This document shows positions 1 to 6,392 of a stretch of 6,392 nt of DNA, in pieces. Position 1 is the stretch's first letter; each line of letters starts with the position of its first letter. This DNA comes from Caldilineaceae bacterium (GTDB lineage Bacteria; Chloroflexota; Anaerolineae; Caldilineales; Caldilineaceae). Made by a program: the position numbers and the translations under genes. The notes below the pieces were generated by a model. It was not told the DNA's origin, ran no database searches, and worked only from the letters and a program-made list of their open reading frames with translations. Location of the stretch: NCBI GenBank assembly GCA_028819675.1, contig JAPPKT010000375.1, forward strand, positions 1 to 6,392, read 5' to 3'.

Positions 1-328
1 GCCCCCCCCCCCCCAACGCCCCCTCTCCTACAACACGCCTCATCGACCGGGTGTCTACATTGGTGACAGGTGCCTAATAGAAGGTGCCCAGCCAGACCCC
101 GCTCCGCCAGTCCCATCGAATCCCCCATGGCCAGCCCTTGTGCCAGCCCTGGCCCCCCAAATCTAACGACCTCCCAACTAAGTCTGGCCCTGACAGCTTC
201 CCGCCTCTGCTCCAACAGCCGGCCCATTGTCCCAGCCGCTGCCGGCTTGGATTCCCAGCCTCTTCCTACCCCAAATCCGGGACGCACCCCCCTCAACCGC
301 TCGATTCCGAGAAACAGGGGGCTGCTGC
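1..328. other. Cytosine-rich non-coding region
   Basis: I see no supportable gene here. The plus strand is markedly C-rich and G-poor, starting with an uninterrupted run of 13 C at 2-14, and it is scattered with CCC and CCCC runs. On the minus strand these are G-runs that could form G-quadruplex-like structures. A short direct repeat AGGTGCC occurs at 68-74 and 82-88. Plus-strand open frames translate to Ser/Pro-rich sequence without domain character. A minus-strand frame is open from 227 to the left edge but reads as low-complexity Gly/Arg/Leu sequence. This is best treated as intergenic DNA upstream of the 424 gene. Confidence 0.6.
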
Positions 329-334
329 TATAAT
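305..334 (+). promoter_or_regulatory. Candidate sigma-70-type promoter
   Basis: A perfect TATAAT lies at 329-334. The best -35 candidate is TTCCGA at 305-310 with an 18-nt spacer; it matches TTGACA at only three of six positions. Transcription would begin near 341, leaving an untranslated leader of about 80 nt before the ATG at 424. A small palindrome, GGACC-T-GGTCC (353-363), would sit just inside the transcript. The -10 box is convincing in a C-rich background, but the -35 is weak, and the TATAAT overlaps the ATG of a possible leader ORF at 333. Confidence 0.45.
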
Positions 335-423
335 GGCAAAGAAATTTTTCACGGACCTGGTCCAGCCTCGACGACGGGGCTTCCCTTGGTCCGCGCAGCA
401 GCCAAGCGGCAGACGGAACTGAT

Positions 424-1050
424 ATGAAAGCATTCACAGTCATGTGGCGCACGATTAAGGCGCTCTATGAAGATCTGCTCCTTTGGGTCTGGCTCAGCGT
501 CCTCTGGTGGGTCGGGATTTTCCTGGTACTGCCCGCGGGACCGGTGACGGCAGGTATCCACAACGCGGCCAACCGCGTCGCCAACTACCGCAGGGTGGAG
601 AGCGGTTTCTTCTGGGACGGCGCAAAGTCCACCATCGGCAAGAGCTGGCTCCTGCTCGGCATCAATCTGCTGATGATCGCCGGCGTCTCGGTGAACATCC
701 GCTTCTACGGCGCCAGCACCGCCAGTTGGGCCCAGATCATCAGTATCGTATGGGTCTGGATCCTGATCATCGTTCTCATGGCGGGTCAATACTTCTTTCC
801 CTTGCTCTGGCAGCAGGACGAAATGAGTATCAAGATGGTCCTCAGAAACGCCTTCATTCTCGCCCTGCGCCACCCTCTCTATACCTTTCTCATGTTCCTC
901 TTCCAGGTCCTGTTGCTCGTCGTCAGTTTTGTTACCGTACTGCCAATCTTTCTGCTCACACCGGCGGCGGTCGTGTTGGCGATGAACTTCAGCTTGGTCG
1001 GCTTGCTGCAGGAACTGGATCTTGCGCCGGAGCCGCCGCCAGGCGCGTAA
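424..1050 (+). CDS. YesL/DUF624-like integral membrane protein
   Basis: A 208-residue membrane protein of unknown biochemical role. Hydrophobic segments lie at about 18-40, 75-92, 103-123 and 152-195, the last long enough for two passes, giving four or five helices. The layout fits the YesL/DUF624 family: an N-terminal helix ending in LPAGPVTAGIHNAANRV (36-52), a polar stretch with a GFFWDG turn (61-66), a helix ending in QYFFPLLWQ (122-130), and then the RNAFILALRHP segment (141-151). In other bacteria this family often sits beside ABC sugar-transport genes, so its place before a molybdenum hydroxylase is not informative about function. The ATG at 424 has only a weak GGA six nt upstream; the hydrophobic architecture supports this start. 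It ends 55 nt before the FAD subunit and may be co-transcribed with it. The family assignment is from recognised motifs and should be checked with a profile search. Confidence 0.8.
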   Translation: MKAFTVMWRTIKALYEDLLLWVWLSVLWWVGIFLVLPAGPVTAGIHNAANRVANYRRVESGFFWDGAKSTIGKSWLLLGINLLMIAGVSVNIRFYGASTASWAQIISIVWVWILIIVLMAGQYFFPLLWQQDEMSIKMVLRNAFILALRHPLYTFLMFLFQVLLLVVSFVTVLPIFLLTPAAVVLAMNFSLVGLLQELDLAPEPPPGA

Positions 1051-1105
1051 TCCCTGCACGAGTAACCCGCACCACGTTTCCCAATTCCAAAAACTTAGAT
1101 CAACA

Positions 1106-1924
1106 ATGGCAATTCTCGCGGAATATCACAGACCAAAGACCCTGACCGACGCCCTCGATCTACTGGCTGATCGTACCGCACGGCGCCTGCCCCTGGCCGG
1201 GGGCACCCATCTCGTGGGAGCCCTGGAAACGCGGCAGCGGCGCGACGTCGACGGCGTTGTCGACCTGGCCGCCCTGGAACTGTCCTACATCAGGCACATC
1301 GATTCCAGCCTGCATGTCGCCGCCATGACAACCCTTACCGAATTGGTCGAACATCCTCAATGCGCAGATCTGGCCGCCGGCATCCTGCCGGCTACCGCCC
1401 GCTTTGAAGGACCCCAGAACCTGCGCAACGCCGCCACAGTCGGCGGCCTCGTCGCACTTGCCGAGCCCGACAGCGAACTTTTCGCCGCCTTACTGGCGCT
1501 CAACGCCTCGGTCGTAGCCGTCGACAAAGACGGTGGCGAGTCGCACCGGCTGTTGGAAGATTTCACCCTTTCCAACCCTCGGTCCTCGCATGGTCCCATG
1601 CTGATAACCGGGATTCAGTTGCCCCTTGTCCATGCCAAAGCCGGCCACGCGCGTATTGCCCGAACGCCGATGGACCGGTGCATCGTTGCCGCAGTTGCTG
1701 TCGCCGCCGCCAACGGCGACCTCTCCCGGAGTGGAGCCTCCAGCGGCGGAAACCGCGCAGACTCGACTCGAACAGCCCTCTGCGGCGTAGGTTCCCGTCC
1801 CCGAATCGCTGGTGGCCCGCTCGTCCCCGCAGGTGATTTCAGAGGAAGCGGCGAATACAGGTTGGCCATGGCCGAAGTCGTGGGCCGGCGGGCGCGGGCT
1901 GACGCCACAGGCTCTCACCCATAG
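1106..1924 (+). CDS. Molybdenum hydroxylase FAD-binding subunit (CoxM/XdhB/YgfM-like)
   Basis: A 272-residue FAD subunit of the xanthine dehydrogenase family. It would take electrons from the FeS centres of the partner enzyme and pass them to an acceptor in the cytoplasm. The FAD-binding domain shows AGGTHL at 31-36 and ATVGG at 110-114, equivalent to the two FAD pyrophosphate loops of CoxM. The Asn usually following TVGG is Leu115. The C-terminal domain carries RIARTPMDR (183-191), TALCGVGSRP (223-232) and a DFRGSGEYRLAM block, all typical of the family. Residues 207-220 form an unusual Ser/Gly/Arg-rich stretch just before TALCGVG. The ATG at 1106 starts at the expected N-terminus (EYHRP, ALDLL); an upstream in-frame ATG at 1022 would add 28 basic residues unlike the family and overlap the previous gene. 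There is no clear SD. The gene lies 47 nt before the catalytic subunit, so the pair is probably one transcription unit. Substrate cannot be read from this subunit. Confidence 0.87.
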   Translation: MAILAEYHRPKTLTDALDLLADRTARRLPLAGGTHLVGALETRQRRDVDGVVDLAALELSYIRHIDSSLHVAAMTTLTELVEHPQCADLAAGILPATARFEGPQNLRNAATVGGLVALAEPDSELFAALLALNASVVAVDKDGGESHRLLEDFTLSNPRSSHGPMLITGIQLPLVHAKAGHARIARTPMDRCIVAAVAVAAANGDLSRSGASSGGNRADSTRTALCGVGSRPRIAGGPLVPAGDFRGSGEYRLAMAEVVGRRARADATGSHP

Positions 1925-1971
1925 CCGGGAGACCTTGCAGACTTCTGGACTCAATCCACTACATCCCAACC

Positions 1972-4900
1972 ATGCCCTCTTCAATCTCACTCACAGTCAA
2001 CGGAACCCACCATCTCATCGACGTCTTCCCCGGAGAGCTGCTGCGGACGGCTTTGCGCCGTCTGCGTATCTTCAGCCTCAAACATGGCGACGAGACAGGC
2101 GAAAGCGGCGCAGATGCTATTCTCTTCACCCGAACGCCGGACGACCCCAGGAGCTACCGCCTTGTCAACAGCGGAATCCTGCTGGCTGCCCAAGCCGACG
2201 GTGCTTCGGTCGTCACCCTGGAAGGGTTGGAGGGCGAAGAAGATGACGGCGCAGAAAGGAGCTTGCAGGAACGCCTGTCTCCTCGCATCTCCACCTTGCA
2301 GCAGCAGTTCATCGAGTGTGGCGCGATTCAGTGCGGCTACTGCACGCCCGCGCAGATCCTGGCCGCCCAGCACCTGCTGGACAAGGACCCCCGGCCCAGC
2401 GAAGACGCCGTGCGCGAAGCCATCGCCGGCGTTCTCTGCCGCTGCACAGGCTACCTGAAACCTGTTCAGGCCATCCTCCGCGCTGCCGCCCAGCTGCAGG
2501 GAGAGACCCCTCCCGCTCCCGAAATAGACGTACGCGACGCCCCCGCAACCGGCGAATGGCCGGCCTCGGACCAGCTCCCTTCAAACGGCTGGCACGACGG
2601 CGGGCCCGACACACAAACACAGACCCGCATCGTCCCCGTGACCGTCGCGCCGCCCAAAACCCATGTCGTCAACAAGCCCGAACCAAAGGTGGACGCCGTC
2701 AAACTGGCCAAAGGTCGGCCCGTCTTTGCCGACGATGTCGAGCTGCCCGGCATGCTCTATGGCGGCCTCCTCACCAGCCCCGTCGCCCATGCCCGCATTC
2801 TTTCGATCGATACTTCCGATGCGCTCGCGTTGCCCGGTGTGCACGCCGTCCAGACCTACGCCGACCTGCCCCGCGTCATCTACGCCAGCGGCGGCCAGAG
2901 CTACCCCCAGCCGCCCCCCTACGACCAGGTCTGCCTCGATTCAAAAGTCCGCTACGTCGGCGACAGGGTGGCGACCGTGGCCGCTGAAACGCCAGAGCTT
3001 GTGCAGGAGGCGCTGGAACGCATCAAGGTCGAATATGAGGAGCTGCCCGCCGCCTTCTCACCTGAAGAAGCGATGCAGACCGGCGCGCCCGTGATTCACG
3101 ACGAAGACGACGCCCAAATGATTCACGACGCCAAACGCAACGTCGCCGTCAAACTGCTCGTGGACCATAACGACGTTGATGCCGCGCTCGAATCTGCCGA
3201 CTTTGTCTTCGAAAGCGAGTACCGCGTTCACCAGGTGCAGCAGGCCAGCATCGAGCCCCACATCGTCATCACCTACTGGGATGAAGACGACCGGCTCGTC
3301 ATCCGCACCAGTACCCAGGTCCCCTTCCACGTCCGCCGCATGGTCGCGCCCCTCCTCGGCCTGCCCGTCCGCCGCATCCGCGTCGTGAAACCCCGCATCG
3401 GCGGCGGCTTCGGCGGCAAGCAGGAGATGCTCATCGAAGACCTCTGCGCCCATCTCACCATTGCGACGGGCCGCCCGGTCAAGTTCGAATACACACGCCA
3501 GATGGAGTTTAGCTCCGCCCGCACACGCCATCCGCAACGGCTGCGATTCCGCAGCGGCGTGGATGCATCCGGAAAACTGGTCGGGATGGAAGTCCGGGTG
3601 GTTGCCGACACCGGCGCCTACGGGACACACGGTCTCACCGTGCAGATGGTCACCGGCTTTCGCGCCCTCAGCACCTACTGGCTGCCCGCAGCCCGCTTCG
3701 ACTGTGATGTCGTCTACACCAACAAACCCGTACCCGGTGCATTCCGCGGCTACGGCGCACCCCAGGCCCTCTTCGGCCTGGAGCAGCACATGGAGGAAAT
3801 GGCGCTCGCCTTCGGAATGGACCCGGTGGAATTCAAGCGCCTCAACTGGGTCAAAGAGGGCCAGTCACTGCCCATGGCGGTGGCGATGGGAGAAGGACGC
3901 GAGGGTTTCCCCCAAACGGTGGAGAGCAGCGGCCTCGCAGAGTGCGTTGAAGCCGGGGCCGAGTCCATCGGCTGGGACCGCCGCAACGACCCCGATTGGA
4001 TGGCGCCGCCCGACCGCCCCCATATCCGCCGCGGCATCGGCCTCGCAATCTGTATGCACGGGACCGGCATCGCCGGGCTCGACATGGGCGCCGCCAGCAT
4101 CAAGCTCAACGACGACGGCTCCTTCAACCTCCTGGTCGGCGCAACCGACCTCGGAACCGGCTCCGATACCGTCCTCGCCCAGATCGCAGCCGAAGCGCTC
4201 GGCGTGCCCCTCGAGCAGATCCTCATCTACAGCAGCGATACCGACTTCACACCCTTCGACACCGGCGCCTACGCCAGCAGCACCACCTACATCTCCGGCG
4301 GCGCCGTCCTCAAAGCCGCCGAAGACGTCAGCAGCCAAATCCGCCGCCACGCCGCCGCGCACCTGTTCGAAGGTGTCGACGCCGATCAGCTCTGGCTGGA
4401 AGACCAGAAGGTCATCGCGCCCGGCGGCCAGGCTGTCCCCTTGGAGACTGTCGCCCTCCACAGCATCCACCAGGAGGAGCAGCATCAGATCATGGCCACC
4501 GCCAGCCACATGAGCTACGTCAGCCCCCCTCCCTTCGCCGCCCAGTACGCCGCCCTGGAAGTGGACACGGAGACCGGCCAGGTGACCGTCGAAAAGGCTG
4601 TAATGGCCGTAGACTGCGGCATCGCCATCAATCCGGTCACTGCCAGCGGCCAGGTCGAAGGCGGCATGACCCAGGCCCTGGGCTACGCCCTCTGCGAGGA
4701 GATGCCCTACGACGACAACGGCCGCCTCGAGATCAGCAGATTCGGCGACTACCGAATCCTGGCCGCCAACGAAATACCGGAGCTCGACACCATCCTCGTC
4801 CAGACCTACGAGCCCACCGGCCCCTTCGGCGCCAAAGCCATAGCCGAAATCCCCATGGACGGCATGGCCCCCGCCATCGCCAGCGCCATCTTCGACGCCA

Positions 4901-4974
4901 CCGGCGTACGCATCCGCGAGATCCCCTTCACACCCGAACGGGTGTGGCGGGCCTTGAAAAGTGAGAAAAAGTAA
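1972..4974 (+). CDS. Fused [2Fe-2S]/molybdopterin catalytic subunit, XdhD-like
   Basis: A 1000-residue xanthine-dehydrogenase-family subunit that hydroxylates a substrate at a Mo-pterin centre. Residues 1-80 form a ferredoxin-like domain whose four cluster cysteines are replaced (Asp40, Ser45, Asp48, Gly68). Residues 110-175 form the helical [2Fe-2S] domain with an intact Cys121-x2-Cys124-x31-Cys156-x-Cys158 motif. A Pro/Thr-rich linker (about 176-235) leads to the Mo domain, which opens with VNKPEPKVDAVKL. Mo-domain signatures are RIGGGFGGK (475-483), GAFRGYGAPQ (589-598, Arg592 equivalent to bovine XDH Arg880), GTGSDTVLAQ (728-737), and GAKAIAE (953-959, Glu959 in the catalytic-base position). 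The AYRCSFR loop of CO dehydrogenase is absent. Bovine Glu802 appears to align with Gln423. FeS-Mo fusion beside a separate FAD gene recalls E. coli XdhD/YgfM. The substrate is probably an N-heterocycle or purine-like compound, but this is inference. No SD precedes the ATG; EISLTVNG-like family N-termini support it. No XdhC-type maturation gene is in the window. Confidence 0.92.
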   Translation: MPSSISLTVNGTHHLIDVFPGELLRTALRRLRIFSLKHGDETGESGADAILFTRTPDDPRSYRLVNSGILLAAQADGASVVTLEGLEGEEDDGAERSLQERLSPRISTLQQQFIECGAIQCGYCTPAQILAAQHLLDKDPRPSEDAVREAIAGVLCRCTGYLKPVQAILRAAAQLQGETPPAPEIDVRDAPATGEWPASDQLPSNGWHDGGPDTQTQTRIVPVTVAPPKTHVVNKPEPKVDAVKLAKGRPVFADDVELPGMLYGGLLTSPVAHARILSIDTSDALALPGVHAVQTYADLPRVIYASGGQSYPQPPPYDQVCLDSKVRYVGDRVATVAAETPELVQEALERIKVEYEELPAAFSPEEAMQTGAPVIHDEDDAQMIHDAKRNVAVKLLVDHNDVDAALESADFVFESEYRVHQVQQASIEPHIVITYWDEDDRLVIRTSTQVPFHVRRMVAPLLGLPVRRIRVVKPRIGGGFGGKQEMLIEDLCAHLTIATGRPVKFEYTRQMEFSSARTRHPQRLRFRSGVDASGKLVGMEVRVVADTGAYGTHGLTVQMVTGFRALSTYWLPAARFDCDVVYTNKPVPGAFRGYGAPQALFGLEQHMEEMALAFGMDPVEFKRLNWVKEGQSLPMAVAMGEGREGFPQTVESSGLAECVEAGAESIGWDRRNDPDWMAPPDRPHIRRGIGLAICMHGTGIAGLDMGAASIKLNDDGSFNLLVGATDLGTGSDTVLAQIAAEALGVPLEQILIYSSDTDFTPFDTGAYASSTTYISGGAVLKAAEDVSSQIRRHAAAHLFEGVDADQLWLEDQKVIAPGGQAVPLETVALHSIHQEEQHQIMATASHMSYVSPPPFAAQYAALEVDTETGQVTVEKAVMAVDCGIAINPVTASGQVEGGMTQALGYALCEEMPYDDNGRLEISRFGDYRILAANEIPELDTILVQTYEPTGPFGAKAIAEIPMDGMAPAIASAIFDATGVRIREIPFTPERVWRALKSEKK

Positions 4975-5157
4975 ATGGCTCTAAAGGAACACCTGTTGCG
5001 CCTTGTCGACAACATCTTCTTTCTGGAAAAACTGAAAGAATTTTGGGCGGCACAGCGGGCACTGAAAGCATTGAAAGAGTGGCAGTCTGACCCGTCGACA
5101 GCCCGACCCTGGCGGGAAGTCTTCACTGAAATGGGCGTAAACGTCAGCGACGAATAG
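4975..5157 (+). CDS. Small hypothetical protein, abutting the catalytic subunit
   Basis: A 60-residue ORF that I do not recognise. Its ATG follows the upstream TAA with no gap, the arrangement expected for translational coupling by a terminating ribosome. Residues 1-36 are rich in Leu, Lys, Glu, Ala and aromatics and would form an amphipathic helix (HLLRLVDNIFFLEKLKEFW at 6-24). The tail WREVFTEMGVNVSDE (46-60) resembles the short 'LEEVLAELGL' ends seen in Phd/RelB-type antitoxins and other small regulators, but there is no adjacent toxin gene. The only ribosome-binding-like signal is a purine-rich GTGAGAAAAAG just upstream. It could be a real small protein co-expressed with the hydroxylase, or a chance ORF; the codons read plausibly and no better frame competes. 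Confidence 0.5.
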   Translation: MALKEHLLRLVDNIFFLEKLKEFWAAQRALKALKEWQSDPSTARPWREVFTEMGVNVSDE

Positions 5158-5327
5158 TCGCTGACCAGTCGTGCATCAAGTCTGGGAAAGAAGAGCGAGG
5201 AAGATTCCGGCGAGACTCGGTATGTAGCCCAATGACCTGCGAGTCCTGAAGACCCTTTCGGCGCAGTTCAGTGCAATCGGATCCCCATCACTCACCACGC
5301 CCAACAAAAAGCACAGTTGGCCTAGCT

Positions 5328-5342
5328 AACGCTTTAAGCGTT
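5328..5342. promoter_or_regulatory. Perfect 15-nt palindrome, possible operator
   Basis: AACGCTTTAAGCGTT is two perfect 7-nt half-sites around a central T. The size and symmetry suit a dimeric helix-turn-helix regulator of the LacI type. It is not followed by a T-tract, so it does not look like an intrinsic terminator. It lies about 265 nt upstream of the zinc-finger gene and 170 nt after the small ORF, so the gene it would control is unclear. The regulatory role is inference from symmetry alone. Confidence 0.35.
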
Positions 5343-5441
5343 CTCTGTCAGTCTCCTCCGTTTTGGCCTACGAAGACTGTCCTTGCGAAAGACATTTCAG
5401 AGCTGTTTGGGGCTCACTAACATTTCCTTACAACCAGGCAT

Positions 5442-5495
5442 CCATCGTAGGGGCACCCCTTGTGGGTGCCCTCTTGGTTGCCTCACCCTCGATGG
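5442..5495. repeat. Nested inverted-repeat element (REP/MITE-like)
   Basis: An inner stem GGGCACCC (5451-5458) pairs with GGGTGCCC (5464-5471) around a CTTGT loop. An outer pair CCATCG (5442-5447) and CGATGG (5490-5495) encloses it. GTAGGGGCACCC-loop-GGGTGCCC units of this kind occur as dispersed intergenic repeats in several bacterial genomes and commonly generate spurious peptides. Only one copy is visible here, so repetition across the genome is inferred rather than seen. It may be a palindromic remnant of a small non-autonomous transposable element. Confidence 0.55.
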
Positions 5496-5511
5496 GGCTT
5501 CGTGAAACCTC

Positions 5512-5532
5512 TTGTCCCTCGTGGAGGGACAA
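5512..5532. repeat. Tight 9-bp hairpin
   Basis: TTGTCCCTC (5512-5520) pairs perfectly with GAGGGACAA (5524-5532) around a three-base GTG loop. It begins 16 nt after the nested hairpin element and may be part of the same composite repeat. The sequence after it is not T-rich, so an intrinsic terminator is unlikely on the plus strand. On the minus strand the downstream bases are also not a T-tract. Confidence 0.5.
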
Positions 5533-5586
5533 CATATCGCATTCACCTCTCAACGCCCTGACCCAAGCCGTAGACTCAAAGAGCGC

Positions 5587-5594
5587 GGAAGGAG
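5587..5594 (+). promoter_or_regulatory. Strong Shine-Dalgarno for the zinc-finger gene
   Basis: GGAAGGAG ends 9 nt before an in-frame TTG (5604) and 12 nt before the ATG (5607). It is the only strong SD in the window. The spacing slightly favours TTG, while codon preference favours ATG; the two differ by one residue. Confidence 0.6.
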
Positions 5595-5606
5595 CACAGA
5601 CAATTG

Positions 5607-5849
5607 ATGCCGTTCAAAAAATGTCCGATCTGTGGAGGTGAAATGGTCGAGAAGGAAGTCGAGAAGCTACTACGTGGTGGCGCAAATACCGCTGCTGTGA
5701 CCGCCCCTGCCGAGGTCTGTCTACATTGCGATGAACGACTCTACTCTGCAGAAACTGTCAGCCGATTCCAGCAAATTCGCGCCAAACTTTCTTGCCATGA
5801 CGTTGCCGATCTTAAACCCTTGGGACAGTCCTTTCAGACAGCCGTTTAA
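5607..5849 (+). CDS. YgiT-type zinc-finger protein (MqsA N-terminal-like)
   Basis: An 80-residue protein with the zinc-ribbon of the YgiT/MqsA N-terminal family. Cys6-Pro-Ile-Cys9 near the start and Cys38-Leu-His-Cys41 would bind one zinc. Between them lies the family's EKEVEKLLRGG segment (15-25), and after them the ERLYSAETVSRFQQIRAKL helix (43-61). It lacks the DNA-binding helix-turn-helix domain of full-length MqsA, so it is the short form common in environmental genomes. Short forms are often encoded beside a DUF4258 or similar RNase-like toxin and are presumed antitoxins, but no such gene is visible here within 450 nt upstream, and downstream is a convergent dehydrogenase. It is therefore an orphan, or its function is not toxin control. 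The ATG at 5607 is chosen; TTG at 5604 is a possible alternative with better SD spacing. Its 3' end converges on the SDR gene with a 55-nt gap and no obvious terminator. Confidence 0.88.
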   Translation: MPFKKCPICGGEMVEKEVEKLLRGGANTAAVTAPAEVCLHCDERLYSAETVSRFQQIRAKLSCHDVADLKPLGQSFQTAV

Positions 5850-5904
5850 CCCGTAATGCCCTTTGCCCAAATCTAAGCCCCAATCAAACGTAGCCTTCAG
5901 CAAA

Positions 5905-6392
5905 CTACTGCGCCGTATACCCCCCATCCACCGGCCACACACTCCCCGTCACAAACGACGCCTCATCCGACGCCAAAAACGCCACCACCGCCGCCACCTC
6001 CTCCGGCTGCCCCATCCGCCCCATCGGATGCAACCGCTTCATCTCCGCATGAACCTCCGGGTTCCCGACCACATTCTCCGTGAGCGGCGAATAAACGAAC
6101 CCGGGCGCAACCGCATTGATACGCACCCCCTCAACCGCAAACCGCACGCCCATCTCCTTGGTCATCTGCGCCACCGCCCCCTTGCTGTGCGGATACGCCG
6201 TAAAACCGTCCGAAAACGGCAGCGATGTCGGGTACCCAACCATGCTCATCACCGAAACAAGGTTCACAATCGCGCCCCGGCCTGCCGGTCTCATCACCTC
6301 CAACGCCGCATACGACATCAGAAACACGCCCTTGGCATTGACCTCCATCACCGCGTCCCAGCGCGCCTCAAAATCTGCCTCAGGCGGCAACG
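5905..6392 (-). CDS. Short-chain dehydrogenase/reductase, C-terminal part
   Basis: The last 161 or so residues of an SDR-family NAD(P)-dependent oxidoreductase; the 5' end lies beyond the right edge. The codon at 6388-6390 is TTG, most likely an internal Leu rather than a start, because full-length members have about 250 residues and the TGxxxGIG nucleotide-binding loop is missing. Counting from that codon, Asn18 in VNAKGVF is the conserved structural Asn, Ser46 in IVNLVSV is the likely catalytic Ser, and Tyr66-x3-Lys70 (YPHSK) is the active-site pair. The [13 protein letters not shown] segment (91-103) and the VDGGYTAQ terminus are typical of the classical subfamily. The Ser-Tyr spacing of 20 residues is longer than the usual 13 or so. 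Substrate cannot be told; sugar, polyol or 3-oxoacyl substrates are all possible. The gene is convergent with the zinc-finger gene and not part of the hydroxylase operon. Confidence 0.9.

Follow-up and report, generated by a model that had tools for sequence, protein, structure and literature searches.

In the textbook scheme of the xanthine oxidase family, electrons run from the molybdenum (Mo) site through two [2Fe-2S] clusters, FeSI and then FeSII, to flavin adenine dinucleotide (FAD). Both iron-sulfur (FeS) clusters are present in Thauera 4-hydroxybenzoyl-CoA reductase (1rm6) and CO dehydrogenase (1n5w), and also in D. gigas aldehyde oxidoreductase (AOR; 1sij), which has no FAD subunit. 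The window presented here, by which we mean the whole analyzed stretch of 6,392 nucleotides from a Caldilineaceae bacterium (Chloroflexota; GCA_028819675.1, contig JAPPKT010000375.1, positions 1–6,392, forward strand), bears at 1972..4974 (+) a gene for a fused FeS/molybdopterin hydroxylase subunit of 1000 amino acids (aa), in which all four FeSII cysteines are replaced and those of FeSI are intact. A preliminary description of the sequence had reported this state, and its coordinates proved exact.

The window matches the homologous Mo subunits of 1rm6 and 1n5w (1.2e-110 and 9.1e-86, respectively) and their FeS subunits as well; in both enzymes the Mo and FeS parts lie on separate chains, unlike the fused chain of the window. 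Its FAD subunit (1106..1924, +; 272 aa, with a shortened C-terminal domain; PF00941, 96 bits) is CoxM-type, like that of the CO dehydrogenase group, and the retention of this gene together with the absence of FeSII sets the window apart from the D. gigas enzyme. Chloroflexota relatives with both clusters (P0096, P0099, P0104, P0101, P0121) have the same fused architecture and a first loop that differs little except at the ligands (KHGCETG[ED]CGAC); unlike the window, they hold all eight cysteines and lack an 8-residue insertion before ligand 4. E. coli XdhD-YgfM (TIGR03313/TIGR03312, urate to yanthine reductase) resembles the window in that its FAD gene adjoins a fused FeS-Mo gene and its FeSII cysteines are replaced, Asp falling at ligand positions 1 and 3 in the alignment. 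However, XdhD has lost FeSI too, separately in the tree, shares 37–39% identity with the window protein and has Gln (AYQGYGAP) in place of the Arg of AFRGYGAP. The degenerate FeS domain that the preliminary description had mentioned for XdhD is real and extends to both clusters (D-A-D-S, S-N-S-D).

Residues 36–52 of the 1000-aa open reading frame (ORF) read LKHGDETGESGADAILF and the stretch from residue 63 reads RLVNSGILLAAQADG, giving a FeSII ligand pattern of DxxxxSxxD ... G instead of CxxxxCxxC ... C, with none of the four cysteines left. Specifically, Asp40 (2089..2091, GAC), Ser45 (2104..2106, AGC), Asp48 (2113..2115, GAT) and Gly68 (2173..2175, GGA), all on the + strand, stand in place of ligands 1 to 4, in an N-terminal plant-type ferredoxin-like domain that we delimited ourselves as residues 1–86 (1972..2229, +). 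The register of these positions is not in doubt, because the nearest relatives with both clusters align without gaps across the first loop (KHGCETGECGACAVLL); later they read VNSC. The FeSI domain (Fer2_2, residues 106–168; 2287..2475, +; placed by Pfam and alignment) is intact, and its ligands Cys121 (2332-2334), Cys124 (2341-2343), Cys156 (2437-2439) and Cys158 (2443-2445) are all encoded on the + strand by TGC codons. A Pfam search of the fused protein recovered Fer2_2, Ald_Xan_dh_C and both MoCo domains and did not find Fer2 (PF00111). Among the 120 matches listed of 6368 in our first protein search, PF00111 is absent from P0002–P0095 and P0097 and present in P0096 and P0098–P0121.

The loss of the FeSII ligands is a fixed trait of a clade. 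We aligned 391 sequences, namely the 120 listed from each of three protein searches (6368, 5595 and 7502 matches), the window, E. coli XdhD and 29 loci. The FeSII ligands are missing and FeSI is kept in 115 of them, plus one with three FeSI cysteines, hereafter 116 window-type sequences; this number rules out a sequencing error or a lone outlier, the latter a concern of the preliminary description. The remainder comprises 242 sequences without either cluster, 29 with both, one with FeSII and without FeSI, two that are too incomplete, and L018 (GCCC), whose N terminus is disturbed because the domain start lies in another frame of a draft contig. L018 is set apart in this count and taken as having both clusters in the trees and in the comparison of FAD segments. 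Rows L081, L087, L089 and L107, which also read GCCC (e.g., KSGGCEKGECGAC), carry a one-residue insertion and were scored as intact. The nearest named loci are 97% identical to the fused protein of the window over 1000 aa.

Asp40, Asp48 and Gly68 are each found in 116 of the 116 window-type sequences, as are Lys37, Glu41 and Gly46, and much of the remaining loop matches cluster-bearing kin; position 45 is Ser in 95, Thr in 17 and Ala in four. The FeSI ligands Cys121, Cys124, Cys156 and Cys158 are kept in 116, 115, 116 and 116, respectively. Other cysteines, which as ligands would have spoken against the preliminary description, occur within residues 30–75 in only six window-type sequences, three times at residue 67, and no fixed replacement for a lost ligand emerges. 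Additionally, a clade-specific insertion of about eight residues (TPDDPRSY; 2134..2157, +) precedes the VNSG segment and ends in Tyr62 (2155-2157); it is missing from 27 of the 29 rows with both clusters. Residue 62 is aromatic in every window-type row (Tyr 113, Phe 2, Trp 1) and Gly in 27 of the 29 both-cluster rows, and Tyr62 might fill the vacated cluster cavity or act as a hopping site.

We also surveyed 301 Chloroflexota genomes, 226 of which matched at E ≤ 1e-120, and read 50 loci (30 from the search and 20 fetched). Both clusters are present in 27, only FeSII is lost in 18, both are lost in three, FeSI is lost in one and one is unreadable, proportions that do not represent population frequencies since the 50 loci were among the best-scoring for a profile that included the loss types. 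Seventeen of the 18 FeSII-minus loci form one family, f18, which reads KFGDE..[LW][ST]GAD with NA[GA] at ligand 4, that is D-[S/T]-D-[G/A], keeps the FeSI cysteines and is without the insertion that carries Tyr62. The reverse state is known from one genome, in L024 (7941..4981, -; the same gene as L076, G034:C133), where the FeSII cysteines are present (KHGCEDGTCGACTVL..CSC) and FeSI is lost (MQSGYDAP..LSRETGY). A large Anaerolineae/Caldilineae group (L020, 3033..187, -; P0242–P0361; L079, L083, L094) has the ligands of neither cluster, reading mostly S-T-A-D at FeSII and S-[SAT]-[DC]-E at FeSI; in L020, L083 and L094 the FAD gene adjoins the Mo gene.

Concerning descent, the Mo-domain tree covered residues 235–1000 in 44 rows, with two support values (G_L036 and P0127 were dropped), and a second Mo-domain tree held 75 rows (L073, L075, L076, L078, L121 and the loci below L073 outside a chosen list were dropped). 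In the 44-row tree the window type is one clade (100/100) nested within proteins that have both clusters (100/98 and 100/99). The XdhD rows fall outside this clade in both trees with cluster-bearing rows in between, which rules out a shared decay lineage; in the 44-row tree a long XdhD branch joins the outgroup branch, itself long, which leaves the exact root unsure. The preliminary description had suggested that the window protein could be an intermediate stage of the XdhD decay. By descent this is wrong: the window clade lies inside cluster-bearing Chloroflexota proteins, and both clusters disappeared independently in the enterobacterial XdhD type (D-A-D-S / S-N-S-D) and in an Anaerolineae type (mostly S-T-A-D / S-x-[DC]-E), which represent two further both-minus origins in the 44-row tree. 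If clusters were only ever lost, at least four separate losses would touch FeSII, in addition to one FeSI-only loss in a single genome.

In the 75-row tree f18 is a clade (99) among L081, L087, L089 and L107, which have both clusters, away from the window clade. Uniting the two clades costs 559 log units on the Mo-domain data and is rejected by the approximately unbiased (AU) test (p-AU 0.002), the groups of the AU tests having been named after a tree had been seen. A tree of the FeS domain over 147 columns without the ligands agrees, placing f18 with L081, L087, L089 and L107 (99/94) and uniting the two clades in 0% of 200 bootstrap trees. A swap of the FeS domain between the clades was therefore discarded as an explanation, but the AU test on these 147 columns does not reject the union (p 0.315) and formally allows an old swap. 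Because the Mo-domain data reject the union and the best FeS-domain tree agrees, the same outcome at four positions most likely arose twice, by convergence.

Selection was compared through ratios of nonsynonymous to synonymous differences (pN/pS) in the window and 15 loci (120 pairs); these are uncorrected values to be read relative to each other, since pS is about 0.5 in most comparisons (lower in control sets D, E and F). The Mo domain stands at 0.091, FeSI at 0.121, the FeSII domain at 0.211 and its loop at 0.148, the linker at 0.230 and the FAD gene at 0.382. Against canonical controls (0.163 for the FeSII half and 0.119 for FeSI), constraint is somewhat relaxed in the FeSII domain compared with one that binds a cluster, and equal in FeSI. 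The full-length AlphaFold2 model aligns with AOR and xanthine dehydrogenase (XDH) from residue 2 on and its best full-length structural matches are AORs, including the D. gigas enzyme. The fold of the FeSII domain is probably kept, as had been anticipated from the sequence. In view of the loop ratio and of the model's alignment with D. gigas AOR, the FeSII domain is not decaying freely and its ligand loop is under purifying selection. The idea of decay fits poorly also with the invariance of Asp40, Asp48 and Gly68 and with the same outcome in a second clade.

The two-part MoCo-binding domain and the a/b hammerhead domain of the xanthine oxidase family (PF02738, PF20256, PF01315) are all present, each at E 4.3e-28 or lower. 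Glu959 (4846-4848, +), just downstream of the Mo domains and aligned with the Glu of the CO dehydrogenase GAKGVGE motif, and Gln449 are invariant in 59 aligned proteins and align with the Glu and Gln of 1rm6 and 1n5w; we take them to have the catalytic and Mo-site roles of their equivalents. Of the two clusters of the family, FeSI is complete and FeSII has none of its four cysteines; the adjoining gene at 1106-1924 encodes the FAD subunit of FAD-dependent members, for which FAD binding is predicted. The fused protein belongs to the family by fold and Mo domain and is a variant by its cofactor set. It scores below the cut-offs of both TIGR03313 (E. coli XdhD, Se_sel_red_Mo; 610.6 against 1101.9 bits) and NF043082 (XdhA_XDHase; 668.3 against 780).

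Fifteen of the 16 window-clade loci retain the FAD gene, as do L025, L027 and L028 among five more distant window-type loci, and the GG loops of the FAD site are invariant in 16 of 16 window-clade copies. Short loci had suggested that f18 lost this subunit, which is ruled out by the presence of the gene in all 17 genomes. The C-terminal segment of the subunit is 25 aa (nine loci, two being the same gene) or 38 aa (three) with FeSII alone lost, 29 aa (three) with both clusters lost, and 44–62 aa in 24 of 25 cases with both kept. The shortening tracks the loss of FeSII only partly and does not alone mark it, because L081, with both clusters, has 38 aa.

We tentatively favor, at slightly less than even confidence, a stable FeSII-free hydroxylase or dehydroxylase of the xanthine oxidase family, in which FeSI would be the last cluster and electrons would cross to FAD without FeSII. 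The ferredoxin-like domain would stay as a folded scaffold holding no cluster (we infer this from sequence, as we do the direct FeSI-FAD route and the substrate), and the carboxylates of Asp40 and Asp48, with Ser45, probably satisfy backbone NH groups that were once hydrogen-bonded to cluster sulfurs. The retained FAD subunit would serve as a two-electron port, reached from FeSI through altered docking, with the FAD subunit moved, or through residue hopping, a crossing that is probably slow.

Several points weigh against such a route. In the geometry of XDH and CO dehydrogenase the FeSI-FAD gap without FeSII should exceed 14 Å, too long for fast single-step tunnelling. The FAD gene of the window clade evolves about twice as fast relative to the Mo gene as in canonical operons: the FAD/Mo quotient is 3.2 with the entire fused gene as denominator (4.2 with just the Mo domain) against 1.8, 1.9, 1.5 and 2.0 in four canonical same-genus operons (FAD/Mo pN/pS 0.207/0.115, n = 6; 0.094/0.050, n = 6; 0.201/0.131, n = 8 and 7; 0.235/0.116, n = 3). 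Both clusters were seen in all seven FeS sequences of control set A and in a single sequence from each of sets D, E and F. The genome of L043, whose FAD gene is non-orthologous, was excluded, which brought the control FAD ratio from 0.409 (n = 7) to 0.207 (n = 6). The C-terminal segment of the FAD subunit measures 25 aa in all 16 clade members and in all three of the more distant ones, compared with 44–51 aa in 24 canonical control subunits. Faster evolution and shortening could mean that the subunit is losing its job. No FAD gene is found in the distant window-type loci L029 (a 13-kb stretch) and L030 (a 4.3-kb contig), and the structure model of the FAD subunit is of low confidence (mean pLDDT 51). 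The XdhD precedent is not proof either, as the passages seen of PMC12507026 and PMC12990295 give no cluster content for XdhD.

Such an FAD subunit on its way out is the core of an unlikely yet serious alternative, in which, on the model of D. gigas AOR, FeSI feeds an external one-electron carrier and the FeSII domain is only structural. Apart from the pace and shortening of the subunit, the AOR-like structural matches favor it, as do the f18 FAD genes, which in 13 of 17 genomes (G046, G095, G120, G152 and others) lie 2–11 kb from the Mo gene, with genes in between and with strand and order kept, and genes for a glutaredoxin and an FAD/4Fe-4S oxidoreductase, each present in 13 of 14 compared window-clade loci 5–8 kb downstream, past other genes. 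Yet the near-universal retention of the FAD gene and its intact GG loops are hard to square with it, the exit cluster of AOR is FeSII, exactly the missing one, and the likely operon itself contains no electron-carrier gene. We consider it improbable that Asp40, Asp48 and Ser/Thr45 bind another metal ion (mononuclear Fe, Mn, Zn, Mg or Ca), structural or as a relay. The two invariant aspartates recur in a separate clade with Ser/Thr between them, and XdhD has aspartates aligned with ligands 1 and 3, position 1 being uncertain as its loop is one residue longer (NSDDGFGFAGSDA); ligand 4, however, is Gly or Ala, position 45 is Ala in four of 116, and Asp can equally cap loop NH groups.

A shade more improbable is a redox-neutral reaction that passes a hydroxyl group from one substrate to another at the Mo site, for which no electron exit would be needed and the wire would be dispensable, with FeSII going first. 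The strong conservation of the Mo domain and the loss of the wire in several separate lineages and in differing combinations (FeSII only, both, FeSI only) agree with this, whereas both FeSII-minus clades still have the FeSI cysteines, the FAD subunit persists, and the one tested ligand-less relative that we found, E. coli XdhD-YgfM, uses NADH according to the passages seen of its report. That a cluster is still built from other residues, or that the enzyme is a dead relic, is very improbable: only the general possibility speaks for it, and neither the lack of any other fixed cysteine in residues 30–75, nor purifying selection throughout, nor the invariant Glu959 and Gln449 fit it. Going beyond the FeSII-free enzyme that we favor, FeSII loss may represent a defined alternative state instead of decay: an 'aspartate-for-cluster' loop D-[S/T]-D-[G/A] would have arisen two or more times in enzymes that keep FeSI, and probably a third time (Asp at positions 1 and 3) in XdhD, and would create a functional site, either a metal relay or a novel docking surface, for flavin electron exchange without the canonical wire; we hold this to be rather unlikely.

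XdhD is the only tested relative lacking these FeSII and FeSI ligands that we found in the literature as far as it was accessible. The enzyme is reported to copurify with a ca. 30-kDa protein attributed to YgfM and to convert urate to yanthine with NADH (PMC12507026; commentary PMC12990295). Its missing ligands seem undiscussed there, since '2Fe-2S' is absent from the main text of PMC12507026, whose 'Fe-S' and 'iron-sulfur' mentions in view concern YgfK, and 'Fe-S' is absent from PMC12990295. Among the titles and beginnings of abstracts listed by searches of the open-access literature (PMC), none reports FeSII ligand loss in this family, although earlier XdhD work behind subscription could be more explicit. 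Some C. difficile loci are without FAD or FeS subunit genes (PMC11448449, seen in part), a paper of 2008 on selenium-dependent molybdenum hydroxylases includes ygfM and ygfN but, in the part seen, gives no detail on ligands (PMC2276186), and the portions seen of PMC10609526 and PMC12879404 have no bearing on the question. Natural, long-lived enzymes with part of the textbook wire removed, in several separate lineages and different combinations, and in which the same chemical answer recurs at the vacated site, permit a direct test of the allowed separation of redox centers, of alternative docking of the flavin subunit and of how NADH electrons enter XdhD despite its lost ligands.

Concerning the remaining features, the hammerhead and molybdopterin-binding domains span residues 248–936 (2713..4779, +; Pfam: Ald_Xan_dh_C 248–359, MoCoBD_1 385–625, MoCoBD_2 663–936). 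The genes at 424-1050, 1106-1924 and 1972-4974, all on the + strand, likely form one operon. At its head, 424..1050 encodes a conserved hydrophobic, probably membrane protein of 208 aa, which had no family match in domain and profile searches, is found in the same position in 15 of the 16 loci compared and has a pN/pS of 0.074 in the same 120 pairs. A 60-aa ORF at 4975-5157 begins right after the stop of the Mo gene; it is probably outside the enzyme, because only some related loci have it and its distance to the Mo gene varies. A YgiT-type zinc-finger protein (TIGR03831) is encoded at 5604-5849 and is likewise found downstream in only some related loci. Finally, the downstream glutaredoxin gene sits on the opposite strand, and L016 offers an example of the region, with glutaredoxin (PF00462) at 14246-14512 (-) and an FAD-linked oxidase with 4Fe-4S domains (PF02913, PF13183) at 14762-17908 (+).
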